A DNA stretch of 64,000 nt, taken from contig NZ_CP009518.1 in assembly GCF_000970325.1 (NCBI RefSeq), forward strand, positions 496,001 through 560,000. Reading direction: 5' to 3'. The notes below the pieces were generated by a model. The model had not been told where the DNA came from. It saw only the letters and a program-made list of their open reading frames with translations, and did no database searches. The stretch is from Methanococcoides methylutens MM1 (GTDB lineage: Archaea > Halobacteriota > Methanosarcinia > Methanosarcinales > Methanosarcinaceae). Made by a program: the position numbers and the translations under genes. This document shows, piece by piece, positions 1 to 22,086 of the stretch (its first letter is position 1; each line of letters begins with the position of its first letter).

Positions 1-32
1 AAACCCAAAAGTTTAGATTCTACTGCTTTCAT
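1..32 (-). CDS. Start of a third hsd-operon gene, probably HsdR (partial)
   Basis: Only eleven codons are inside the window (reads MKAVESKLLGF on the minus strand). Its ATG overlaps the TGA stop of hsdS in an ATGA arrangement, so it is translationally coupled to the specificity subunit. In type I restriction operons the gene after hsdM and hsdS is usually hsdR, the helicase-nuclease subunit, but too little is visible to confirm that here. The assignment is positional inference. Confidence 0.45.
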   Translation of the reverse strand, partial: MKAVESKLLG

Positions 33-1234
33 ACGATAATCTCCCCACTCATTAATTTAGGAAGCAAAATATCACGAGCTTCCTGAAGTTTTTGGTTTTG
101 AATATAAAGATTTAACCATTGATCAAATACAGGAGTTAATGCATCATTAAAAATATAGATTAGTTGTGATGGTGGCATCAACATTGGAAAAGAACGTATA
201 ATTTGTTGATTGATGTTGTTTTGAGCTGCTCCCATTGAAAGGCCAACAAGTGTTTGCTTGTTTTCTAGGAAAAAAAGAAATGAATGCATAAAGCTAGCCC
301 TTGGGTCCTTTGCCATAATTGCACAACAAGCTTGATTAGAAGCTGCTGGACTTGCAATTATCCCTACCTGACCAATTGTTGCCCCGTACATTGCAACAAG
401 AACCGTTTTTTCAGGAAATAACTTTGCAGAAGACTTTTTTATGGCCTCTTGAGTAATCTTTTCTTCAGTATCTGTTATGAATCTATTAAGAAGCTCTTGT
501 GTCTTCACCCACTTTATCTCACCTGTAAAGAAATCTGGATTTTTTCTACTTGGAGTACCACCAGATGATGTGTCATAAAAATCAGAAACACATCCATTAT
601 CCCATCCCTCAGGCACCCCATCCATAACCTTGACGTGCTCATGGCCTGGGAAACGCAGGTTGACGAACCATTCCCTATATAGCAACCTTGCTGACTGTTC
701 GAGTAACTCAATACGACGCTGGTTGTTTTTAATAAGATTCTCATAGGCAGAGAGAATAGAAACAATACGGTGCTGAGTTGACATGTCGGGAATTGGAAAC
801 TGAAAAGAAGAGAGAACTTTAGCATTTGCATTTGGCTGTGCCGCTCCACTAACACGTGAAAGAACAAAACGCTTATAAATGTTTGATTCGACAACTCGTC
901 CAACATAACCAGGATCGGCCTTTTTTGGATCAATTCGAATCCTAACGAGATAAGAAGCAAATACCGATTGTTCATCTTCTCGAATCAATTTGGCATATCC
1001 CACCGTTGCACCTGTTCGGGCAATTACAATATCACCTGGTTGGAGAGAAAACTTGGAGATATCTTTTTCTTCAATTTTACAATATGGCACGCTATCCCAA
1101 TCAATATTGAGAGGTACGATATCGGTAATTCTTAGAAACTTTGGTCCCACCTTTTTGTTAGAAGCTGAAGCAGTATATCCATATCGGGTTGACTCTGCAA
1201 TGTCAGCCAGAGAGACGAGGGGCATATTTCTCAT
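29..1234 (-). CDS. hsdS: Type I restriction-modification specificity subunit HsdS
   Basis: This 401-residue protein should recognise the bipartite DNA target of a type I restriction-modification enzyme. It has the two-repeat layout of the family: a first target recognition domain (about 1-150), a conserved helical spacer around 155-190 (STQHRIVSILSAYENLIKNN, then ARLLYREWFVNLRFPG), and a second recognition domain and spacer ending EARDILLPKLMSGEI. The length is normal for HsdS. It starts inside the end of hsdM (ATGA overlap at 1231-1234) and its stop overlaps the start of the next gene at position 32, so the three are one operon. It lies in the accessory island and is expected to be variable between strains. 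Confidence 0.95.
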   Translation of the reverse strand: MRNMPLVSLADIAESTRYGYTASASNKKVGPKFLRITDIVPLNIDWDSVPYCKIEEKDISKFSLQPGDIVIARTGATVGYAKLIREDEQSVFASYLVRIRIDPKKADPGYVGRVVESNIYKRFVLSRVSGAAQPNANAKVLSSFQFPIPDMSTQHRIVSILSAYENLIKNNQRRIELLEQSARLLYREWFVNLRFPGHEHVKVMDGVPEGWDNGCVSDFYDTSSGGTPSRKNPDFFTGEIKWVKTQELLNRFITDTEEKITQEAIKKSSAKLFPEKTVLVAMYGATIGQVGIIASPAASNQACCAIMAKDPRASFMHSFLFFLENKQTLVGLSMGAAQNNINQQIIRSFPMLMPPSQLIYIFNDALTPVFDQWLNLYIQNQKLQEARDILLPKLMSGEIIV

Positions 1235-3327
1235 ATCCCTAACTCCTCAAAATTACTTTTTATGATTGCTGCCAATTCAACTGCTTCCTCATTGAGTTCC
1301 TCGAGTTCGATGTGGATATCTCTCAATGCTTCCTCAAAATCAAAATCCCCATCCACTTCTTCAGGAGCTATACCAACATATCTTCCAGGAGTAAGACTCC
1401 AATCTGATTCCTTAATCTTGTCCTTGGTAACAATGCTACACAAACCAGGCACATCAACAAACTGTGCGTCAGGGAAACGGGATAAGAGCCACAGGATCTG
1501 GCGGTAGAAGTAAACCGTAAGCTTGAGCTGCTCGACCACATCCTTGCGCTTAGCATCCAGCTCTTTGACCAGTTTACCAACAGCACGCTTTTCCCATATA
1601 TTTCGAGTACCGGCATTTGCCTCTTTCTCGACGGAATCCACAAGTCTGGATGCAAGCTTGTAGACCAGGTCCACATCCTTTATGAGATCATGGCAGGATG
1701 TTGCAAGCTCCTCGAGTTTCCCGAACAACTTTTTCTGGTCCTCAAAGTCCTGTTCACAGGATTCGCTCCAATCCGTTGCAATACGAGATTCCAGTTGTTC
1801 CACTGTCTGGAAATAGGCAGATGATACATCTTCATACTCTTTCAACAATTCAAAAGATGGAGATTCTTCTGATATTTCCCCAAGGAATGGTGTGGTGGCT
1901 GTTTTCAATTTATCATAAGCATCTTGGAAAGGTGCGGCTACTTCGGTTATGGATGCAGCCTCTGTGAGCGTGCGGTCGAGATAGCTTTGTACCAAGGCGA
2001 TGAAGCGTTCGGTTTGTCCACGGTAAAGCCAGACTATGGATGTAAGATTCTGGAGCTGCTCAGGTGAGAAATCGTATATCTTACGTGTTACTATCCGGTA
2101 GATGTTCCTAGCATCTATCATCAGTACCTGATCCTTGCGTTCATCGGGTTTTGCTTTGTCCAAGTGCCAGAGTTCGCAGGGGACTGTACGGGTGTAGAAG
2201 AAGTTTGAGCGTATGGAGATCATCACGTCCACTGCACCGGTCTCAATAAGCTTACGGCGCACCTCAGCTTCACCATGACCGGCACTACTGGCCTGGGAAG
2301 ACATGACAAAACCTGCACGGCCATTTTCACCAAGATATGAGTAGAAGTATGAAATCCAAAGATAATTGCCATTGGGAACTTTCTTATCCTTGTTCTCACC
2401 CGGCAAATCGAATGGTAGCCGCTCATCACCCTTGATCTTCTCGGCATCCACAAGATCCACATTGAAAGGAGGATTGGCCATGACAAAATCACAGTTAGCG
2501 AATAAAGGGCTTCCATCTTGTAAAGTGTGCTCATCCTCATAGTATGTGTTTGCTTCACGGATGTCACCTTCCAGACCATGGACAGCAAGGTTCATCTTTG
2601 CAAAGCGGATAGTAGTAGCGGTCTTTTCCTGACCATAGAACGTGACCTTATGAGCAGTATCTTCACCGTGTGCTTCTATGAAATGACTTGACTGGACGAA
2701 CATCCCGCCTGACCCACATGCAGGATCAAAGACAACACCGTGGTCTGGTTCTATGACGTTGACAATGGTCTGAACCAAGGATGGAGGTGTAAAGAACTCT
2801 CCACTATCCTGTGCTCCCTGAATTGCGAATTTCATTAAGAAGTATTCGTAGATCCGTCCGAACACATCACCAGTGGCTGTACGCAGTGCCTCACTATCAA
2901 ATGTACGTAGCAACTCTTCCAGCACATCACGCTCAAAAATATCATATTCTTTAGGTAGCTGACCAGCTAAAGGCTTGAACTCTTCCTCAATTGCTTCCAT
3001 GGCTTCGACCAAGGCATTGCCAAGATTTTCTTCTTGGGGAAGGTTCAGCAGATTGGAATACTGTGCTTTCTCTGGCAGCATGAGAGCACGTCTTTTATGG
3101 AAATCGGCCTTGACAAGAGGACGTTTTGCCATTTTTCCAGCTTTCTGGTCAGCTTCTATTTGAGCCAAAGCAGCTTCATAACGATTAGAGGCATGCCGAA
3201 GGAAAATCATACCCAATACGGGCATAGAGTATTCTGTTGATGTTAGTTTTGAGTTTGCACGAAGGTTATCTGCAGCAGACCAAAGGCTGGCTTCCAGCTG
3301 GCTAATGTCTTTGAATGCATCGGACAT
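1231..3327 (-). CDS. hsdM: Type I restriction-modification DNA methyltransferase HsdM
   Basis: This is the adenine-N6 methyltransferase subunit of the type I system. The N-terminal helical domain (MSDAFKDISQLEASLW..., about 1-150) precedes the catalytic domain. The S-adenosylmethionine motif DPACGSGGMFV and the catalytic NPPFNV motif are both intact. The C-terminal 250 residues are rich in charged helices and are longer than in the shortest family members. Start choice: ATG codons lie at 3345, 3333 and 3327; the last is preferred because a GGTGAT ribosome binding site sits five bases before it. hsdS follows with a 4-base overlap. Confidence 0.95.
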   Translation of the reverse strand: MSDAFKDISQLEASLWSAADNLRANSKLTSTEYSMPVLGMIFLRHASNRYEAALAQIEADQKAGKMAKRPLVKADFHKRRALMLPEKAQYSNLLNLPQEENLGNALVEAMEAIEEEFKPLAGQLPKEYDIFERDVLEELLRTFDSEALRTATGDVFGRIYEYFLMKFAIQGAQDSGEFFTPPSLVQTIVNVIEPDHGVVFDPACGSGGMFVQSSHFIEAHGEDTAHKVTFYGQEKTATTIRFAKMNLAVHGLEGDIREANTYYEDEHTLQDGSPLFANCDFVMANPPFNVDLVDAEKIKGDERLPFDLPGENKDKKVPNGNYLWISYFYSYLGENGRAGFVMSSQASSAGHGEAEVRRKLIETGAVDVMISIRSNFFYTRTVPCELWHLDKAKPDERKDQVLMIDARNIYRIVTRKIYDFSPEQLQNLTSIVWLYRGQTERFIALVQSYLDRTLTEAASITEVAAPFQDAYDKLKTATTPFLGEISEESPSFELLKEYEDVSSAYFQTVEQLESRIATDWSESCEQDFEDQKKLFGKLEELATSCHDLIKDVDLVYKLASRLVDSVEKEANAGTRNIWEKRAVGKLVKELDAKRKDVVEQLKLTVYFYRQILWLLSRFPDAQFVDVPGLCSIVTKDKIKESDWSLTPGRYVGIAPEEVDGDFDFEEALRDIHIELEELNEEAVELAAIIKSNFEELGI

Positions 3328-3345
3328 CGACATCACCAGGAACAT

Positions 3346-7345: not shown

Positions 7346-7619
7346 TTATTATCTCCCTTTACAGACGAACACTCATAAAATAATTGAATAATAAAATAAC
7401 ATAAGTCTATTTAGAATTTTCTAATTATATCTAATAATTTCACTCTGTAATGATGATTTTGCATCCGATATAACAGTTTCACGCTTTATGGATCTTCAAA
7501 TGCACATTCATAAGGCCACACTTCCATTTCTTTTTTCATACGTGTGTTTCCAAAATCAGAGCAAGCAATGGAAAATAGGGTACACCATATATGCATAACA
7601 CCCCCTTCATATTTTGAAG

Positions 7620-7940
7620 CGAAGTTAAGCACTCTGAAACCGGTTCAAAATTTCGTGCTCAATCCACTCTGCATCGTAGACCCCATGGTCTTATGTTCTT
7701 CATTTCTACCGGTTTACAACTATAACAGAATAAGTGGGGGACTGAGGTACGAGTCCTAAGTTGAGTTACACCTTATCAGACGAGATTTCGAGTCTCGGGG
7801 GATGACTCTGAGGGGAGGTCGTGAGTGGACTGGCGAAGGCAGATATCGCATTTTCTTGGGTATCAGTCTATTATCAGATGGATTTATCCTGGTGTTTCCC
7901 CGGCCAGAGACTATCCTCCGGACCCGGTCAGCTTAAACCT
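7620..7940 (-). ncRNA. Candidate structured RNA closed by a long-range helix
   Basis: On the minus strand the two ends can form a helix: 7936-7931 pairs with 7630-7625 (6 bp), 7930-7928 with 7637-7635 (3 bp), and 7927-7924 with 7643-7640 (4 bp). Inside lie smaller hairpins, for example 7681-7692 and the segment around 7781-7797. Some motifs resemble RNase P RNA in the right order: AAGCTGACC at the 5' end, GGAGGATAGTC soon after, GTAAAC further on, and GAGCACGAAA...GAACCGG before the 3' end. The P2/P3 region and an exact catalytic core are missing, so this is not called RNase P. Strand and function are inference. Confidence 0.3.
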
Positions 7941-8471: not shown

Positions 8472-9578
8472 ATGTCAACAATTACAATGGAAGAAGCTCT
8501 TTCAGAAAACAGGCTACAGAAACTTGCTATTAAGCTTAATAGTATTCCAACGGCCGATGAGTTCAAAGAAAAGGTAGAGAAAGATCTCTGGGAAATGCTG
8601 GTCAAACCCGAAGATTATGAAGAAGAGGAAATAAAATACGTAAATCTTCCTGAAAAAAGTAAGAAAATCTTTGGCTATATTCTAGACGAAGAAGGCGATG
8701 AGGAACTTCCCTGGTGGTTTACCTCATTTGAATGGGAAGTTAGAACCATTGGTGTGGGGGAAGAAACGATTGACATTGAGATGCTGCGTGACGATTTCCA
8801 ACATTTTGTGATTGACCGTACATACATTAAGAAGCCGAGATTAAAGGTTAATTATTATTCTGATTGCAATATATGTAACATCCTGTCCAAATTTGGAGAT
8901 TTTTTTGAAGAGCTAAAAGACAGAACCAATCCAGATATAAAGCAAGATTCAGAAACAAAATTGGAACTACCACAAAACATTTTTGCATTTGAGGATGGAG
9001 GAATAATAACTACCAGTGAGTTCAAAGAATGGTTCGAATCTTTAGCTAAACTTAGCCCCCCTTTTAATGAAGAACTTACAGCACTGCTCATGATGAATAC
9101 AGGGGTAAAAGAAGATATAGCCAGAGAAATTTTGCCTGAAAATCTGATGGATAGAATTGATAATATCGGATTAGTAAATGATTCGATTTTTAACAATAAA
9201 TATTTCGAACCTTTAGTGGAGATTATCAGAGATTGTTGGAAATTGTTTGATCTAGAAGTCCCTTATTTAGGCAAAAAATATAAGAATTTACAGCCTCTGG
9301 AAGCAGCATTGTATGAAAGCTGGTTAGAGAATAACAAAGATTTCGCTAAAAAGAATAAAGAATGGCTAAGGCTTAGAAAGACACCTCATCAAGTTCCATA
9401 TGCTAAAATAGCATTTAAATCCCCCATAATGTTGACAGATTATAGTTATGATGATATGTCAATGCCTCTAACCCTTCGTATTACTAGAAAAGGAGATTAT
9501 CAGTTTAAAGATATCTGGAAGGCGTCTGAAATTGAGCAAATGCTAGAATCATATGGCATAAGTGGTACGAATGAATAA
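8472..9578 (+). CDS. Unknown protein, first gene of the nuclease/AAA+ operon
   Basis: This acidic protein of about 368 residues belongs to no family I recognise. An N-terminal helical part (to about 60) is followed by a Trp-rich stretch (ELPWWFTSFEWEV, about 75-87), a Cys pair CNIC near 133-136 and mostly helical sequence afterwards. No signal peptide or membrane segment is seen. The ATG at 8472 is chosen over an upstream GTG because the AGGAGTG ribosome binding site is correctly spaced from it. Its last eight bases overlap the next gene, so it is co-translated with the nuclease-like and AAA+ proteins and is likely their partner or adaptor. Confidence 0.75.
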   Translation: MSTITMEEALSENRLQKLAIKLNSIPTADEFKEKVEKDLWEMLVKPEDYEEEEIKYVNLPEKSKKIFGYILDEEGDEELPWWFTSFEWEVRTIGVGEETIDIEMLRDDFQHFVIDRTYIKKPRLKVNYYSDCNICNILSKFGDFFEELKDRTNPDIKQDSETKLELPQNIFAFEDGGIITTSEFKEWFESLAKLSPPFNEELTALLMMNTGVKEDIAREILPENLMDRIDNIGLVNDSIFNNKYFEPLVEIIRDCWKLFDLEVPYLGKKYKNLQPLEAALYESWLENNKDFAKKNKEWLRLRKTPHQVPYAKIAFKSPIMLTDYSYDDMSMPLTLRITRKGDYQFKDIWKASEIEQMLESYGISGTNE

Positions 9579-11400
9579 GAAGCAAGATGGCCTACCTGAA
9601 AATCTATTAGAGGGGGATAGGCAAAGTGGAGCTAAAGATTCATTAAAAAAAAGTAGTGTCACATCTATTGATGAATCTTCTGAAGAGGGCGAACCTCCGG
9701 AAAAGACAATACTAATTTCTTTTGTTGATAATTTCATGGGGTTAAAAAAGAATTCTGGAGTAGTTAATCAATCAGTTGCGCCTGAAATACAAATTGAAAA
9801 ATTTTCAAGCAAGTACTTTCTAGTTAGTACGCGACCCTACATCCAAACATCAAGAACAACTCATAAAGTCTTGGAAGTGGTTAAACCTCAACATAAGCTA
9901 ACTAAAGAAGATTTTCAAACACAAAATTTCAGAGCTTCGATAATAAAAAACCTAAGGATAGACAGAATACCAATTTTACAAATAAAGAATATCCAACCTG
10001 AACAACAGCTGGAAGGAAATAAAGATTTTAAAGTCACGACTGTCCAGGATTTAAATTCAGATAGAATTACGCATAAAGTAACACATTTTGCGGAGTCAAA
10101 GTCTGGATCACAAAATCAAAAAGGATATATTTATCTCGAAGAAAAAGATCCGGTCTTCATTTGGGGAGGTGGTTCCCCTCATGGTTCTGACAGACCTAAA
10201 TTTATAGTACATTTGGACCATGGGAATGTACCTTCACTTCAATTTCTTCAAGTACTCCTTCGTGATACCTACAAGGAGATAGAAGGAGGTGAACCTGGGG
10301 CACAATCCGTTGAATTTGTTGCTAATGAACCGCGAATACCTACAGTACAAAAGAACATCGTTACATTGGATTTAACTGATGGGGACTGGAATCCTTCTAT
10401 AAGAAATAATAAACCTGTAATTGAGAGAAATGGTATTGATATTGTTCCAAAACTCAGGGAAGTTGCTTCCAATCTTTATACAGGACAATTGGGATATTTT
10501 ATATTGAATGTTCCAAAAAAATGGGAACATCCCATTAGGCGTAAAGACTTCTTTGCACAATTAGTGGAGAGATTATCTTCTAGCAAAATTACTACAGGGA
10601 AAGGGAAAACTGAAACCTTTGTAGACAAAGTAAAATCATCACCAATCCTTCTTGTAGATACATATTTCAGCAACGAAAATGATTTTTTCAGAAAAGTGTC
10701 CAAGTATTTTTCACTAACAGCCAGTAAGAAATTTTCCAGCATCGGGCAGATAGAGGCTGTCAAAGAAAAGATACTGAAAAAAAATGACTGGAAAAGAATA
10801 GCTCTCACCAAAAGACATGAAAATGAAAGTTATGAACATTATTTCTGGAAAGCACTAATAGTAGAGGGTTTAGCCCGAAAGTTATGGCTAGAAAATGAAG
10901 AGGGATTTACAGACTTTGAAGATTTTCTGAAAAAGAAAGTCATTCGAGATGGAATTATCAAAACAGAAGTAGCAATCAATGGTGGAATTATACCTGATAT
11001 AGAAATCGATACAAGTGAAAAGTTGGTTATTGATGGCTTAAATTCATTTGTTGAGATTGAGAATAATGGTCACTTATTAAATATACCTGCATTCGTAGAA
11101 TTTGAAACAGGAATAAGTGAAGGGGCATATAATTTCAGGAAAATTAGAAATACGCTGGAAAAATATCTTGATAAAGGGCTGCCACACGAAACATACATTT
11201 ACATTGTCGTACCCAGCAGACTTCTTTTCAGAGGTAAAAAGAGAGCAAATATGATAATTCAACTGGTAAATTCATGGAAAGAGTTGAATGAAGGGTATAA
11301 TGTTGAAATATTCACTCCAGTGATTGGCAGCGGAACTTGTAGCAAACTGGTACCTGCTAAGAAATTTATAAACAGTATCTATGAGGACAATAAAGAATGA
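9571..11400 (+). CDS. Large protein with C-terminal PD-(D/E)XK-like nuclease domain
   Basis: The protein has about 609 residues. The first 60 are polar and probably disordered. A middle region (about 70-400) is beta-rich and not recognised. The C-terminal part resembles a restriction-type nuclease fold: an opening helix with Glu (YEHYFWKALIVEGLARKL, from 421), then PDIEID (Asp476), FVEIEN (Glu495/Glu497) and PAFVEFETG (Glu510/Glu512), followed by a helix with Arg/Lys. Glu-x-Glu in place of Glu-x-Lys is a known variant of this superfamily. Substrate is unknown; the fold call is inference from motif order. It overlaps the genes on both sides (8 and 4 bases). Confidence 0.7.
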   Translation: MNKKQDGLPENLLEGDRQSGAKDSLKKSSVTSIDESSEEGEPPEKTILISFVDNFMGLKKNSGVVNQSVAPEIQIEKFSSKYFLVSTRPYIQTSRTTHKVLEVVKPQHKLTKEDFQTQNFRASIIKNLRIDRIPILQIKNIQPEQQLEGNKDFKVTTVQDLNSDRITHKVTHFAESKSGSQNQKGYIYLEEKDPVFIWGGGSPHGSDRPKFIVHLDHGNVPSLQFLQVLLRDTYKEIEGGEPGAQSVEFVANEPRIPTVQKNIVTLDLTDGDWNPSIRNNKPVIERNGIDIVPKLREVASNLYTGQLGYFILNVPKKWEHPIRRKDFFAQLVERLSSSKITTGKGKTETFVDKVKSSPILLVDTYFSNENDFFRKVSKYFSLTASKKFSSIGQIEAVKEKILKKNDWKRIALTKRHENESYEHYFWKALIVEGLARKLWLENEEGFTDFEDFLKKKVIRDGIIKTEVAINGGIIPDIEIDTSEKLVIDGLNSFVEIENNGHLLNIPAFVEFETGISEGAYNFRKIRNTLEKYLDKGLPHETYIYIVVPSRLLFRGKKRANMIIQLVNSWKELNEGYNVEIFTPVIGSGTCSKLVPAKKFINSIYEDNKE

Positions 11401-13058
11401 CTGGTAAAGACTTTGATTTGACTCAATGGTTGGAAGAAATCAGTGATAAGTATGAAGTCCGCCTATCAGTAAGAGAAGGGAAGGAATGGGTAGACAGGAA
11501 AGAACTCATTGATAAAAATATTGAATACTATATTCTGAAAGCTGATCCTGGTGAAGAAGAAATTCGTCATTATTTCAATTCCGAAGATGTTCAAAAGGTA
11601 GGGGAATGGAAAAGGTATGCATTTACAATAATTGGAAATAATAGAGAGATTTATTCTCCTAAACCAGAAATAGACATAAAAATAATTCTAGAACTTCCAT
11701 CAAATTGTATAGACATAATTCCTTGGGAAAAAATGGGACAAGTTACTCTTTCAGTTGAAACCTTAGATTATGTAAACGAAAGAGACGGATTTAAACCAGT
11801 TAAAGCTAACAAAATTGCAGGTCTAGAAGAGCAAAAGAATAGACTGAAAAGGTTTTTGGGTATTACGAATGAAGAATGGGGTCTTTCTGATGAAACGGGC
11901 ATCATCCTTCAAGGACCACCTGGTACTGGGAAGACTGAGTTGGTAATCGAGATCTGTCAAGAAATGTATGGTTCTATACCTGTGATGATTTCTGGCCCAG
12001 AAATCCTGAGCAAGTGGGTAGGGGAGTCTGAGAGGATGCTCAGGAAGAAGTTTGAAGAGGCAAGGGATGGCAATCACAGGTTATTGTACATTGATGAACT
12101 GGATGCCATTGCAAGAACAAGAAGTGAGTCTTCAGAGAACTATAGTGCACAGATTGTAGCTCAGCTTCTGGTTCTTTTAGATGGAGCTAAAGCAAAGCAA
12201 GAAAGGGAAAGGAACAATCCTCTAAAAGTCATTGCTTCAACAAACATATCACACGTTATTGATCCTGCACTAAGAAGACCCGGTAGACTTGGAAGTAGAC
12301 CTGTATATTTTGAAATGCCATGCAATCATGAGCGAAAAGCTATTCTTCACCACTATTTAGAAAAGATTTATTGCAATGGTAAAGATAAATTAAGTCCAGA
12401 TCTTCAGAATTTTATTGTCGGTCGTGATCTAAAATTATTAGATGAGGTTATTGATAAAACAGAAGGATTTACTGGAGCGGATCTGGAAGATCTGGTTAGA
12501 GAAGCTGTTGTCCAAGTGCAGGAAAATGATCAAAGCGTACTGGACTTAAAGATACTAGGAGATACCTTAGAAGAATTTAGTCTTGCCAAAGGTATCAAAT
12601 CGGAAGATTTTAGCGAATCTGAATTGGAAGCAACCTTGGACATTCCTGGTCTTGATATTAAAACTTTGATTTTCGAACTAGAGGATAATCATATTAATCC
12701 AAGAGATGTTGCTAAAGATTATTTCAAAAAACTAAAAGCGACAAAGGAATCAAATGAAGATTTTAAATTCCGATATAAAGAAGTAGGACCCAGAGATATT
12801 CTAGAGGATAATCCAATTATAGCAAAGGAAAATGTAGTTGAAGCGTTCAAACACTCAGAAGATGAACGAATTTGTCTTTACATAAAGAATACAGAAAATA
12901 TTGTTAAAGCTAGAAAATATTCACCACTTATTGATCGACTGATTGGTGTAATCAATGAACAACTTCTTCAATGGGATCAAGAAAATCTTCTTATCCTGGA
13001 TTACATATCTGAGACCAGTGACAGAATAACCAATATGAATAAAGAATCGATAGAATAA
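11397..13058 (+). CDS. Cdc48/PAN-like AAA+ ATPase
   Basis: This 553-residue protein has one complete AAA+ module: Walker A GPPGTGKT (173-180), pore-loop region KWVG (206-209), Walker B LLYIDELD (229-236), sensor 1 ASTN (280-283) and arginine fingers RRPGRLG (293-299), then a lid with the GFTGADLEDLVREA signature. The 140-residue N-terminal domain and the 180-residue C-terminal extension are not recognised and differ from proteasomal PAN and from Cdc48, which has two ATPase modules. It is therefore probably a dedicated remodeller for the two proteins encoded before it. It starts at an ATGA overlap with the nuclease-like gene. Confidence 0.85.
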   Translation: MTGKDFDLTQWLEEISDKYEVRLSVREGKEWVDRKELIDKNIEYYILKADPGEEEIRHYFNSEDVQKVGEWKRYAFTIIGNNREIYSPKPEIDIKIILELPSNCIDIIPWEKMGQVTLSVETLDYVNERDGFKPVKANKIAGLEEQKNRLKRFLGITNEEWGLSDETGIILQGPPGTGKTELVIEICQEMYGSIPVMISGPEILSKWVGESERMLRKKFEEARDGNHRLLYIDELDAIARTRSESSENYSAQIVAQLLVLLDGAKAKQERERNNPLKVIASTNISHVIDPALRRPGRLGSRPVYFEMPCNHERKAILHHYLEKIYCNGKDKLSPDLQNFIVGRDLKLLDEVIDKTEGFTGADLEDLVREAVVQVQENDQSVLDLKILGDTLEEFSLAKGIKSEDFSESELEATLDIPGLDIKTLIFELEDNHINPRDVAKDYFKKLKATKESNEDFKFRYKEVGPRDILEDNPIIAKENVVEAFKHSEDERICLYIKNTENIVKARKYSPLIDRLIGVINEQLLQWDQENLLILDYISETSDRITNMNKESIE

Positions 13059-14153: not shown

Positions 14154-15866
14154 TTATGCGAGTGTTCCTTTTCTTTCAACAAAAATAGGATAGTTCTTTG
14201 GATACTCTGATTCTGATTTAAACTTATAATTTCCACGATACACCGGGATTTGTTTGCGGTTCTCGGTTATCTTTGTTGCTACAAAATCATAAGCAAATAG
14301 TCTTTGTGAGAATGTTTCTATCGTGTTTATGATCTTCTTTTGGTCTATATTGTTCTTTGAACAATAGTCTAAATATGCATCATGTAGTGGTATTTTCTTA
14401 AACTCGGTTGATTCGCTCGATTTTTCCATATTCTCAACAATGAACTGATACAAAGGCTCACTATTGTTTTCCCATTTGTCACGGACTTCGGAAGCATCAC
14501 TATCAACAAGTAATCCATTTCTTCTAATCTCTAGAGCTTTATCAAGTACAACCTTAAAAAATGCTGATAAGTTATCATCTGTAAATATCTCATTGTGGAA
14601 ATTAGGATTTACATCAAATACATTTGTAAAATTGATGTATTCCCACCTTTCCCAAAATGCAGTGTCACAGGTAATAGCTTCATCTACCTTCGGCGGCTTA
14701 TTGCATGTAAAAACATGTACCGCTTTTATCATTGTATCATAAGGCTGTATGTGTTTTCTTTCGACGGTATGCAAATAAGATCCGGTAAACTTCTTGAACG
14801 TGCCTGATTCCTTCAAAGGTATTTCACTTAGATCATCATACATGTTCAATAGTTTGTTTTCCATGTTTGCAGGTGCATATTTGTCATTGCAAACAGCTTG
14901 TAGGGATACTCCAGATATGTTGTCTCTACCAAAGACCCTAGTTAAAAGCTCCAAGTATGTAGATTTACCTGCATGAGCTTCTCCATCCAGCAAATACGAC
15001 TCCTTGAATGGATTACATCCCATCATTTGCAAAATAGCTTGTGCAGGTATCTGATAAAGTATGACGTGATCATTGTCTACGTATCCGGTCATAAGATCAT
15101 CTATGTATGATATATCTACACACGGATCATAACAAACCGGAAGTTGATATGTAAATTTATATGTCGGAGAATGTTCTTTAAGTTGAATCTCCCCTGTCTC
15201 AAAATTAACATGAATGACGCCATTTTTTACAGAAATAACATTATCTGTTCTGTTAAATGGGTATTCAGTTTCAGGTTTTGTGTATTTCAAATGGAATAAT
15301 ATATTTTTGGCTGCAGTGCCTGGAAATCCTCTATAATTAACTTCTTCGATAATGGTCTGGATTTCATTTAATACAGCTGTTGTATCTTGCTTGAACACAC
15401 CATCATCATACACATAAAGCATATCTGAATAGCTTAATATGTTGTATTTCTGCGATATGTATTTAGAAATATTAAGCTCATGTAGTTGGACTTTTCCAGA
15501 TATTTCGTTGATTTCATAGCAATCTTCTAGACTTATCTTTGGTTTATACCAGCCACTGTTCTTTATTTCATCAAAGCACTTATTTAGTAACAGACTTGCA
15601 TATATTTTGTTGAGATTATATGCATTGATAACCATTTCTGTTATGTCAACCTCGTACAAATTAAGGTCACCGTTTGGAAATGTGAATATATTAGAGTCCT
15701 CTCCATCATCGCTATCATTCTCTAAATGACAGCACATACATTTGATTTCATTGCCTGCAGTGTACACTTTCAAGAAACCAACATGTGCTTCATTAAGGTC
15801 ATCTATTGGTTTATATATGGGAAAGGTAATCATTTCTTTAAAAATTTCATGTGGGTTATTTTCCAT
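14154..15866 (-). CDS. D5-like superfamily 3 helicase, phage/plasmid type
   Basis: This protein of about 570 residues is probably the replicative helicase of an integrated plasmid or virus. An N-terminal part of about 130 residues is unrecognised; a D5_N-like segment (YVYDDGVF near 151) leads to a P-loop ATPase: Walker A DGEAHAGKST (about 294-303), Walker B LLNMYDDLSE (about 340), and the sensor-like VHVFTCNKPPKVDE. No primase domain with catalytic residues is visible in the N-terminal part. Start choice: ATG at 15866 overlaps the stop of a small upstream frame (TGATG); the open frame continues to 15914. Confidence 0.8.
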   Translation of the reverse strand: MENNPHEIFKEMITFPIYKPIDDLNEAHVGFLKVYTAGNEIKCMCCHLENDSDDGEDSNIFTFPNGDLNLYEVDITEMVINAYNLNKIYASLLLNKCFDEIKNSGWYKPKISLEDCYEINEISGKVQLHELNISKYISQKYNILSYSDMLYVYDDGVFKQDTTAVLNEIQTIIEEVNYRGFPGTAAKNILFHLKYTKPETEYPFNRTDNVISVKNGVIHVNFETGEIQLKEHSPTYKFTYQLPVCYDPCVDISYIDDLMTGYVDNDHVILYQIPAQAILQMMGCNPFKESYLLDGEAHAGKSTYLELLTRVFGRDNISGVSLQAVCNDKYAPANMENKLLNMYDDLSEIPLKESGTFKKFTGSYLHTVERKHIQPYDTMIKAVHVFTCNKPPKVDEAITCDTAFWERWEYINFTNVFDVNPNFHNEIFTDDNLSAFFKVVLDKALEIRRNGLLVDSDASEVRDKWENNSEPLYQFIVENMEKSSESTEFKKIPLHDAYLDYCSKNNIDQKKIINTIETFSQRLFAYDFVATKITENRKQIPVYRGNYKFKSESEYPKNYPIFVERKGTLA

Positions 15867-15958
15867 CAGACCACTTCCATATGGATAAGGTTGTAAATTT
15901 CCTTCCATGAGCAATTGTCAATATCTGGGTCATATGCAAACGCTGAAATCTTTTTCAT
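15866..15958 (-). CDS. Tiny ORF (30 codons) linking the regulator genes to the helicase
   Basis: A 30-residue frame (beginning MKKISAFAYDPD) has a good AGGTGA ribosome binding site, starts in an ATGA overlap with the gene before it, and ends in a TGATG overlap with the helicase gene. It may be a real micropeptide, a translational coupling device, or the original start of the helicase separated by a frameshift. The sequence cannot decide between these. Confidence 0.45.
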   Translation of the reverse strand: MKKISAFAYDPDIDNCSWKEIYNLIHMEVV

Positions 15959-17438: not shown

Positions 17439-18557
17439 TTAGTACCCCCTCTGCTGCATCCCTGCTTTTAGTAAATCCAGCGCTATATTCGGATTTGCTT
17501 CTATTTTTTTCATAATCTCAGCTGTAGCAGCATCCTCAGCTAATGCTGTTTTCATATCAAGAATCATGCTACAATTGCTGCAATATTTGCTATCATAAGG
17601 GTTTTTTGTGTTACATCTTGGACATTCAATGGGTTTAAGGTTTTCTTCTCTGTGCTCTTCCTCATCTTCAATGATGCCATAACTTGCCAACATTTTCTTC
17701 TCTACATCATCGCCCGACATGTGAATATATACGGCTGGCATCTTACTGTCATCTTCCCATCCGGCAACGATTCTTAATTCGGATTCACGGAATCCACGTT
17801 TGACGAGTTCGGTCAACCTGCCGTGTCGGAATGCATGTGGGTGTACATTTTTCTTGATATCTGCATGATCGGAAAGCGTATTTAATAAGTTCTGGACTGT
17901 TCGTACATCTAAACGCCTAGGAGCATTTCCATATTTACGTGCTGTCACAAATAATGGTGCATCCGGGTCCTCTCTTTGTGGGTGCTGGTTAACCCATAAT
18001 TGTAAATCGGGTACTGCATCAACTAACCTTAGTCGTCTCATTCCAGTTTTGCCATTTACAATAATAGCTGCACCATAGCGATCAAACTCTACATTTCTTA
18101 TGGTCAATGCTAATAATTCTCCTATTCTTGCAGCGGAATCCCACAAGGTCATTACAAGTGCCCTGTCTCTCTGATTAGTACACGCTGTAATTAACTGCGT
18201 TACATCGTCTTGTCTTATCAACTCTGAGACTGGTAAACGGTTTTTTTGTGGTTTGGTTTTTACACCTTCAAAGAAATCATTATCTGGTTTTAGCCACTTA
18301 AAGAACAACCGTAAGTCAACAATATCATTATGTACAGTCTTAGGTTTTCTATTCTCGCGCCTGTGTAAGATATAACCCTGTATATCATCTTTTGAGATCT
18401 CATTAGCCGGTTTATCATTGTAGTATTTCAAAAAAGTGTATACTTTCCATAATTTAGTATTTATTGTTGATTTTTTGAACCCATTAAGTTGAAGGGATTC
18501 TTCATACTTTTTCAGTAATGGTTCGTTGTTTCCAGTTGCGTCTGGTCTATGCTTCAT
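17439..18557 (-). CDS. Tyrosine recombinase/integrase with zinc ribbon tail
   Basis: This 372-residue integrase has a SAM-like core-binding domain (about 10-95) and a catalytic domain with the first Arg in DSAARIGELLAL, HAFRHGRLTEL carrying His-x2-Arg, and a Tyr in AVYIHMSG as the probable nucleophile. After the catalytic domain comes a zinc ribbon, CPRC...CSNC (about 315-335), which is common in archaeal XerA-like and plasmid integrases. The gene begins about 50 bases from a tRNA-Leu 3' half, the expected place for an integrase beside its attachment site, and it is intact. Confidence 0.92.
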   Translation of the reverse strand: MKHRPDATGNNEPLLKKYEESLQLNGFKKSTINTKLWKVYTFLKYYNDKPANEISKDDIQGYILHRRENRKPKTVHNDIVDLRLFFKWLKPDNDFFEGVKTKPQKNRLPVSELIRQDDVTQLITACTNQRDRALVMTLWDSAARIGELLALTIRNVEFDRYGAAIIVNGKTGMRRLRLVDAVPDLQLWVNQHPQREDPDAPLFVTARKYGNAPRRLDVRTVQNLLNTLSDHADIKKNVHPHAFRHGRLTELVKRGFRESELRIVAGWEDDSKMPAVYIHMSGDDVEKKMLASYGIIEDEEEHREENLKPIECPRCNTKNPYDSKYCSNCSMILDMKTALAEDAATAEIMKKIEANPNIALDLLKAGMQQRGY

Positions 18558-18605: not shown

Positions 18606-18664
18606 TAGGGCTTAGGACCCTGTCTCGTAGGAGTTCGTGCGTTCGAATCGCACCTCCCGCACCA
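18606..18664 (+). tRNA. 3' half of a tRNA-Leu(TAG): attachment-site remnant
   Basis: The segment holds an anticodon arm (TAGGG, loop with TAG, CCCTG at 18606-18622), a long variable arm (CTC-loop-GAG), a complete T arm (18637-18653), the 3' acceptor strand CTCCCGC, and an encoded ACCA. The long variable arm and the TAG anticodon indicate tRNA-Leu. No D arm or matching 5' acceptor strand (GCGGGAG) lies upstream, so it cannot be a functional gene. It is best read as the copy left at the far end of an element that entered a tRNA-Leu gene. Confidence 0.8.
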
Positions 18665-19124
18665 CTTTTTTGATTACTAGTGTGTTTAGATGCATTGTCT
18701 TGGTGGTTTGGTTATTTCAAATAACTAACTACATACTTTAATAAAAATGAAAGATGAGCCCCCACTCATCAATCTATCCCAACCGTGTCATACCCTGACA
18801 CACTATATTGTGTGTTTCAGTATATAATTATATCTAACTAATATAAATGTTATAGTTCAAGTATACTTGACTTTACTGTATTTATAATTATTATTCATAT
18901 GAATTATTGCTTCTTATTGCCCTTTACTTTCATTTATAATTTGGGAAATCTCATCTCCTTTAATCAATTCTAATTTATAACTAAATTCCAACTCCTTTTT
19001 GTAGAATCCATTCTACTCATTCTGCACTACTCATGAGGTGTTTTCATCATTATCTTAAAAATCTTTTAAATAAGGGTTAACTTAAAATCCTCTAACTTAC
19101 TAAATATAAATTGGGGTGTTATGC
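18665..19124. other. Intergenic region at the island/chromosome junction
   Basis: About 460 AT-rich bases without a gene. A TATA-like CTTTTAAATAAG lies near 19062-19073, suitably placed for the downstream secreted-protein gene. The short repeats of ATAATTATTA type near 18885-18900 are simple low-complexity sequence. Confidence 0.45.
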
Positions 19125-21301: not shown

Positions 21302-21400
21302 TTATTCCCCGCCTCCCTGCGCTTATAGCATTTTACCTTACCATACAATTTGTTTCTGGGGTATATATCTGGTTCTCTAATTGGGAAGTCAATAGAAACT

Positions 21401-21445
21401 CTTATAAACGATTAATCATTATAGATATGTGCAATGATTAATCGT
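21401..21445 (+). promoter_or_regulatory. TATA box and perfect 13-bp inverted-repeat operator (copy 1)
   Basis: CTTATAAA at 21401-21408 is followed at once by ACGATTAATCATT (21408-21420), a 12-base spacer, and its exact inverse AATGATTAATCGT (21433-21445). The arms cover the TATA box edge and the expected start of transcription, an arrangement suited to repression. The gene it serves begins at 21500. Confidence 0.75.
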
Positions 21446-21499
21446 GATAATTACTCATTGACAAAACAAAATTAAACACAAGATCGGAGGACAGAACAA

Positions 21500-21667
21500 A
21501 TGGACACATACTACGAAGTTTCCATGATGGACGAGGAAGACAGGATCCTTGAATGGACAACTGGGAGACTTAACATTGATGGCAACACTGCATTTATTAC
21601 CACACTTACAGTGTCCATCGCATTTGCTGCCTTCCTCAGGCTTTCATCTTACGTCAACCTCTTCTGA
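21500..21667 (+). CDS. 55-residue small membrane protein, copy 1
   Basis: The acidic, soluble-looking N-terminal half (MDTYYEVSMMDEEDRILEW) is joined to a hydrophobic C-terminal segment (FITTLTVSIAFAAFLRL), so it is probably a tail-anchored or single-span protein. A good ribosome binding site (CGGAGGA) lies ten bases before the ATG. The nearly identical copy downstream, with substitutions confined to four positions, shows that the reading frame is under selection. The family is not recognised. Confidence 0.85.
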   Translation: MDTYYEVSMMDEEDRILEWTTGRLNIDGNTAFITTLTVSIAFAAFLRLSSYVNLF

Positions 21668-21783
21668 GGTATAGATCGTTGCCTGCTATTGGGGTGGGTC
21701 TGGTTTGTTCAGTATCGTTGGGCATTCCGGCTCACCTAAAACCTCCTTTGTTTCACAAAGGTTTGCGACAGAAAGTCTTATAA

Positions 21784-21821
21784 ACGATTAATCGTTATAG
21801 ATATGTTTGATGATTAATCGT
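21784..21821 (+). promoter_or_regulatory. TATA box and inverted-repeat operator (copy 2)
   Basis: ACGATTAATCGT at 21784-21795 and ATGATTAATCGT at 21810-21821 form an inverted repeat with one mismatch, directly after the TATA sequence CTTATAAA (21777-21784). Spacing and position match the first copy, 376 bases upstream. Confidence 0.7.
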
Positions 21822-21918
21822 GACAATTAATCATTCAACAGCCAAACATCAACTCTACAAAAATCAGATCTACAAAATTAACTCTAAACATTAAAAGTAA
21901 ACTCGGAGGAAAGAATAA

Positions 21919-22086
21919 ATGGACGCATACTACGAAGGTTCCATGATGGACGAAGAAGACAGGATTCTTGAATGGACAACTGGAGGACTTAACATTGATG
22001 GCAACACTGCATTCATTGCCACACTTACAGTGTCCATCGCATTTGCTGCATTCCTCAGGCTTTCATCTTACGTCAACCTCTTTTGA
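21919..22086 (+). CDS. 55-residue small membrane protein, copy 2
   Basis: This is the second copy of the small acidic, C-terminally hydrophobic protein. It differs from the first at residues 3, 7, 23 and 34 (Ala, Gly, Gly and Ala here). It has its own promoter, operator and ribosome binding site (CGGAGGA), and a hairpin terminator follows, so the two copies are independent transcription units. Confidence 0.85.
   Translation: MDAYYEGSMMDEEDRILEWTTGGLNIDGNTAFIATLTVSIAFAAFLRLSSYVNLF

Follow-up and report, generated by a model that had tools for sequence, protein, structure and literature searches.

In the DUF4297-HerA system, assembly of the complex activates the nuclease (PMC11291478), and in Haloferax a RecJ3/4-aRNase J nuclease complex associates with Cdc48a (PMC10470531). 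When 7,747 archaeal genomes were surveyed in 2026, defence systems proved few, and the authors urged that those specific to archaea be uncovered (PMC12988326). Here we describe a three-gene archaeal cassette, absent from every catalogue tested, in which a motor of the protein-unfoldase type appears to be coupled with an active site of the nuclease type. The cassette is carried by the 2.39-Mb chromosome of the archaeon Methanococcoides methylutens MM1, within a stretch of 64,000 nucleotides that was analyzed as a whole and is referred to as the window. Judged from its mobility and its known defence-gene neighbours, the trio is probably an unnamed antiviral system.

Results

The Trio Lies on a Mobile Element

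The three genes are designated A, B and C. The starts chosen for A and B are those that agree with their homologues (ATG 8472 and ATG 9571), and residue numbers of B refer throughout to the 612-aa frame from GTG 9562.

8472–9578, plus strand: gene A, 368 aa from ATG 8472 (371 aa with GTG 8463)
9571–11400, plus strand: gene B, 609 aa from ATG 9571 (612 aa from GTG 9562)
11397–13058, plus strand: gene C, 553 aa, a single-module AAA+ ATPase of the Cdc48 type with N- and C-terminal domains of its own

The open reading frames and the homologue-matched starts agree on overlaps of 8 bases (A/B) and 4 bases (B/C), as reported in the first-pass annotation of this DNA. That annotation also placed the genes in an integrase-bounded island beside a type I restriction system. 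The restriction system is indeed present, with HsdM and HsdS at 29–3345 and HsdR just beyond the window, and an integrase stands at the right end of the island; the left boundary, instead, is a tRNA-Leu gene.

Contig 487,972–488,057: tRNA-Leu(TAG) gene, left boundary of the element, 8 kb upstream of the window
G000:C1:488003–488064: attL, inside this gene, likewise ~8 kb upstream
29–1234, minus strand: HsdS of the type I system; upstream of the window, L060 covers HsdR and a DUF262 gene
1231–3345, minus strand: HsdM, type I restriction, on the same element as the trio
14154–15914, minus strand: D5/P4-type primase-helicase, a mobile-element gene
17439–18557, minus strand: tyrosine integrase, adjoining attR at the right end, the element's one integrase
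18608–18669, plus strand: attR, where 62 bp from the 3' part of tRNA-Leu(TAG) are repeated

The element integrated in tRNA-Leu measures 26.7 kb between its 62-bp direct repeats (att sites). It is delimited in this way because one of the repeats lies beside the integrase and because the sister genome G094, whose flanks are mostly 88–96% identical, has one intact tRNA-Leu gene and no such element; a different 1.4-kb stretch follows tRNA-Leu there. The cargo comprises the trio, the D5-type primase, a complete HsdR-HsdM-HsdS system and a DUF262-type restriction gene (PADLOC Orf5/HEC-06). A stretch upstream of A (7600–7700) that was suspected by eye to resemble 5S rRNA gave no Rfam match and was set aside. 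Just outside the element, at 21394–22086, are two intergenic direct repeats spaced ~400 nt apart, one 200 nt long with 91% identity and the other 84 nt long with 82%; they too gave no Rfam match.

The Cassette Is Conserved as One Unit

Co-occurrence of the three genes elsewhere had been set beforehand as a check on the first-pass annotation, and the trio is kept together, with A-B-C in identical order, at 11 loci: the window, 3 haloarchaeal plasmids, 4 other genome contigs and 3 further genomes. By tblastn, B was carried by 3 of 72,556 plasmid records, all three haloarchaeal and each with an ordered A-B-C trio. A profile scan of GTDB contigs contributed four extra loci, all keeping the A-B-C order, and a 393-genome sample of the phylum, to which the haloarchaea also belong, contributed three extra full-length ones. 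Searched independently, A was present in exactly the 4 of 393 phylum genomes that have full-length B, and a search of the plasmids with A returned exactly the same 3 plasmids. The 8-base A/B overlap recurs at 5 of the 6 loci checked (the window and the haloarchaeal L002, L003, L009 and L020), with a 346-base gap in its place at L004. Protein identity of B ranges from 23 to 62%, and the three genes show correlated pairwise distances (r = 0.89–0.94 over nine loci; Mantel P < 0.001). On the evidence of these comparisons, the cassette is one evolutionary unit, inherited together.

Within the plasmid and phage collections, the GTDB contigs and the phylum sample, the trio was found in archaea only; bacteria were covered by the plasmid and phage collections and by two short degenerate peptide patterns in the GTDB contigs. 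None of the 237 other genomes in the host's class has B, the 10 sister genomes of the genus included, and no B homologue was found in viral contigs and phage records. At two loci, L006 and L007, C lacks its last ~150 residues, which counts against the trio being a functional system, and gene A is split into two frames with differing break points (L007:7939–8995 and L006:1488–2551). The broken A and shortened C may reflect decay or sequencing error, or the tail of C may be dispensable.

Neighbours of the Trio in Other Genomes

Neighbouring genes were scanned selectively, at chosen loci. Several identified defence genes were found close by at only three of the loci, and the rest adjoin plasmid or housekeeping genes, which speaks against a role in defence. 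In genome G253, the trio has a TmtA (Tiamat) gene on one flank and, on the other, a short Argonaute paired with Aga-REase; the BREX genes PglZ and BrxHII, both near-perfect, follow ~15–20 kb further out, and a PDC-S27 archaeal ATPase and a DUF262 gene are present too. In G454, a full-length TmtA is the gene adjoining the trio; ~11 kb away is an Avs1b-like gene whose match is weak and partial (5e-10). Because TmtA of full-length quality (E < 1e-50) occurs in only ~9 of 393 genomes, its position beside the trio in 2 of the 4 trio genomes is unlikely to be due to chance. The trio of a Haloplanus plasmid adjoins a DNA methylase and a VWA gene, and in two Halorutilus-like genomes (L006, L007) the genes on either side of it, assigned by eye, are argininosuccinate synthase-like and gyrase-like. 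Being conserved, horizontally mobile and repeatedly located beside known defence genes, the cassette is a candidate defence system by association.

The G253 region (G253:C1 ~2568000–2616000; L044, L019 and L043) is a dense haloarchaeal defence island that holds PglZ, BrxHII, the short Argonaute/Aga-REase pair, PDC-S27, the trio, TmtA, a TPR-repeat protein and the DUF262 gene. Haloarchaeal TmtA genes encode ~2,000–2,150 aa (L018:9817–15984 in G454; L039:5052–11486 in G300), and in both genomes TmtA has the same three small conserved neighbours (L042:2345–4709; L039:2587–4966), with which it possibly forms an archaeal multi-gene Tiamat variant. The trio and TmtA were also considered as one four-gene system; this was rejected, since G300 has TmtA and the same small-gene neighbours as G454 and no trio.

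Gene C Encodes a Classical AAA ATPase

C is a classical AAA protein (Pfam AAA 9e-31, AAA_lid_3 8e-8) that has the Walker A and B motifs, sensor 1, arginine finger, pore loop and lid of the Cdc48/PAN/FtsH clade.

11913–11936, plus strand: Walker A GPPGTGKT, residues 173–180, invariant in the 11 loci
12012–12020, plus strand: pore loop 1, the K-W-V of KWVG, residues 206–208; W207, V208 and G209 invariant
12081–12098, plus strand: Walker B LLYIDE, residues 229–234; LYIDE invariant in the 11 loci

The same invariance in the 11 loci holds for sensor 1 (STN) and the RPGR finger region, and pore loop 1 reads (K/R)-W-V-G in 11/11. Pore loops of this aromatic-hydrophobic type grip the polypeptide in Cdc48 D2- and PAN-like unfoldases. 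The closest solved relatives of C in the PDB are archaeal VCP-like ATPases. By its motifs, C would be an ATP-driven, hexamer-type AAA+ ring with an unfoldase-type aromatic pore loop. Its earlier description as a single AAA module with unique terminal domains was borne out; no match was obtained for its N-terminal region (120 residues) or its C-terminal one (150 residues). Within the C terminus, 31 columns align in Walker-B register with the protein's own AAA module (P = 0.002, probability 14%), and a degenerate half-module, a second AAA, is possible in this tail.

Gene B Has a Nuclease-like C Terminus

Pfam, NCBIfam, PADLOC and PHROGs yielded nothing meaningful for B, whose lone Pfam hit is far below the cut-off; eight homologues scanned singly against Pfam added nothing, and no protease domain was detected in B by Pfam. 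AlphaFold modelled the protein with a mean pLDDT of 53 from an alignment of 5 sequences.

9571–10185, plus strand: B residues 1–208, predicted to be disordered (pLDDT <50)
10186–10596, plus strand: middle domain, residues ~209–345, alpha/beta, with an RP...LRDxYxE..GGEP motif, common to the distant B' proteins
10657–11382, plus strand: nuclease-like domain, residues ~366–607, with E422, H426, K430, E469, D479, E513-x-E515 and K527

The tail contains a 16-residue motif, phi-x-phi-x6-V/I/Q-x3-phi-[RKQA]-P, at residues 59, 94 and 131, that is, 3 copies against ~0.03 expected per shuffled sequence. L020 has four copies and L019 three, and the motif is enriched in most members; none was found in L004, L009, L018 or the distant B' proteins. 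The pattern was drawn up after the window, L020 and some other loci had been viewed, and only the remaining members are fair tests of it.

The Asp...Glu-x-Glu order noted at the end of B in the first-pass annotation is D479 followed by E513-x-E515, and it is invariant in 14/14 homologues. This 14-protein alignment takes in three very distant homologues (L021–L023, 20–24% identity), and T416, E422, S423, H426, Y427, K430, E469, D479, E513, E515, T516, K527 and V549 are kept in 13–14 of its members. The acidic triad and the Glu, His and Lys are strictly kept down to ~20% identity, a pattern resembling the conservation of an active site. In the low-confidence AF2 secondary structure, the conserved residues fall on a helix-strand-strand-strand-helix-strand series, as in the PD-(D/E)XK nuclease core, and the last 200 residues of B follow the PD-(D/E)XK motif order, E - D - (D/E)x(K/E) with a preceding helix. 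Where the classical motif is (D/E)-x-K, B has Glu-x-Glu, and its lysine (K527) sits on the following helix; reading the Glu-x-Glu as a nuclease motif needs a migrated lysine, which counts against that reading.

From motif order and predicted secondary structure, the C terminus of B is probably a PD-(D/E)XK-like nuclease. The call is kept at probable because profile and fold searches gave no confirmation. Foldseek comparison of the B model with the PDB and BFVD returned no match below E 0.001, the top matches being noise-like, and comparison of B with PDB sequences, including hmmsearch, returned nothing at the E limits applied. When the nuclease domain was aligned with Mrr_cat by hhalign, P was 0.14, comparable to 0.22 for the reversed control.

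Gene A and the Distant B' Branch

A is an orphan, as annotated earlier, with no meaningful family match in Pfam, NCBIfam, PADLOC or PHROGs (its single NCBIfam hit is far below the cut-off) and no protease domain in Pfam. Its AF2 model is mostly alpha-helical at low confidence (pLDDT 60), and Foldseek against the PDB gave nothing below E 0.001. A relationship to HsdS was considered from the best PDB sequence match (59 residues, E 0.0018) and rejected as a chance helical match.

At L021–L023, on otherwise ordinary archaeal chromosomes, a B-like protein (B') with middle and nuclease-type domains and the same conserved residues is encoded with a different upstream partner (A') and no AAA gene, in a two-gene arrangement.

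L021:6375–8905: two-gene B' relative
L022:7248–10504, minus strand: two-gene B' relative
L023:5844–8551: two-gene B' relative

The A' partners are related to each other in 2 of 3 pairwise comparisons. A' was also considered as a homologue of A, and the comparison found no relation between them. Because B-like domains occur with other partners and without an AAA gene, the nuclease half is probably older than the trio. A Halorussus plasmid (L064:2842–7053) encodes a 1,403-aa protein whose C-terminal part is a distant relative of B, apparently a fusion.

Discussion

Because the three genes always move as a group, on mobile DNA and amid known virus-defence genes, the trio is probably antiviral. 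The candidate defence system with a nuclease that was proposed in the first-pass annotation is well supported where genomic association is concerned, the association with defence genes being strong, and is partly supported overall, since the Foldseek, PDB-sequence and Mrr-profile searches for a nuclease fold were negative. As a fairly likely reading, we infer that the three subunits form a mobile immune system of archaea, whose unfoldase ring would activate or load a nuclease. A is the proposed sensor or adaptor subunit, which would recognize an infection signal or an invader protein. The C ring would dock on the A-B complex and pull a polypeptide, most likely the motif-bearing disordered tail of B or else a bound invader protein; this pulling would assemble or unlock the B nuclease, which would then cut invading or cellular DNA.

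A more far-reaching proposal, which we put forward tentatively, is that this is a new kind of archaeal immune machine. A Cdc48-type unfoldase, rather than a DNA translocase or GTPase, would be the energy-driven switch of the nuclease and would thread the tail of B or an invader protein; A would be a sensor of a type not seen before, and the two-gene B' arrangement would be a second branch in other archaea. If the trio defends, it would offer a tractable new archaeal immune system that is natural in halophiles, and the putative catalytic residues named here would let its mechanism be tested directly in Haloferax volcanii.

It is unlikely that the trio instead serves its mobile element, whether by processing, maintaining or exporting the element's own DNA or by excluding competing plasmids. 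Its presence on haloarchaeal plasmids (L002–L004) and on integrated elements where primase, Orc1-like or PolB genes are nearby (the window and L020) would suit such a role, but the replication genes of these carriers are unrelated, the chromosomal copies in defence islands (G253 and G454) are without such genes, and most plasmids and elements do without the trio, which only 3 of 72,556 plasmid records carry. We consider it very improbable that the trio is a complex for DNA repair or end processing analogous to Haloferax RecJ3/4-aRNase J, even though a Cdc48a-associated nuclease complex is experimentally known in an archaeon (PMC10470531); a very patchy spread (4 of 393 phylum genomes) with absence from sister genomes is unlike housekeeping repair, and B matches neither the RecJ nor the RNase J family.

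The remaining alternative concerns B itself, whose C terminus might be a binding domain or another enzyme domain, in which case the trio would be an ATP-driven protein-remodelling system, defensive or not. The lack of a fold match, an Mrr profile comparison that does not rise above its control and an E-x-E standing where the classical motif has lysine all point in this direction. Against them stands the strict conservation of the acidic triad, Glu, His and Lys to ~20% identity, and we regard a B that is not a nuclease as rather improbable.

Comparison with Known Systems

No named system was recognized in the first-pass annotation, and PADLOC-DB 2.0 agrees, giving 0 matches for A and B and only generic AAA cross-hits for C. 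The best PADLOC match of C is IetA (66.5 bits), like C an AAA+ ATPase in a defence operon; however, C scores 52 bits against an NCBIfam IetA cut-off of 510, and the trio has no protease where IetS is of the subtilisin type, its partners being the orphan A and the nuclease-like B. Cdc48, VCP and PAN share with C the AAA module, pore loop and arginine-finger region, whereas in C only a single AAA module is complete, the N- and C-terminal domains are distinct and the score is 152 bits against a CDC48 cut-off of 803. C thus lacks the two AAA modules and the score that define housekeeping CDC48, and, with A and B orphans, no housekeeping complex was matched, in keeping with the earlier view of the locus. 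The RecJ3/4-aRNase J complex also joins an archaeal Cdc48 to nucleases (PMC10470531), but those nucleases are unrelated to B, the Cdc48a is a housekeeping one and the role is DNA repair.

The trio is not filed under McrBC or DUF4297-HerA because C has no defining feature of either family, and A, B and C match no McrB, McrC or HerA family in Pfam, NCBIfam or PADLOC. The likeness to both lies in how they work. In McrBC, a type IV restriction system, an AAA+ ring drives a PD-(D/E)XK-type nuclease; it differs in that C is a classical Cdc48-type AAA rather than McrB-type and that the trio has the extra subunit A. The HerA-nuclease systems unite a hexameric ATPase ring and a nuclease in one supramolecular complex (PMC11291478); HerA, however, is an FtsK/HerA-type DNA translocase, whereas the AAA module of C is a Cdc48 one and its pore loop is of the unfoldase type.
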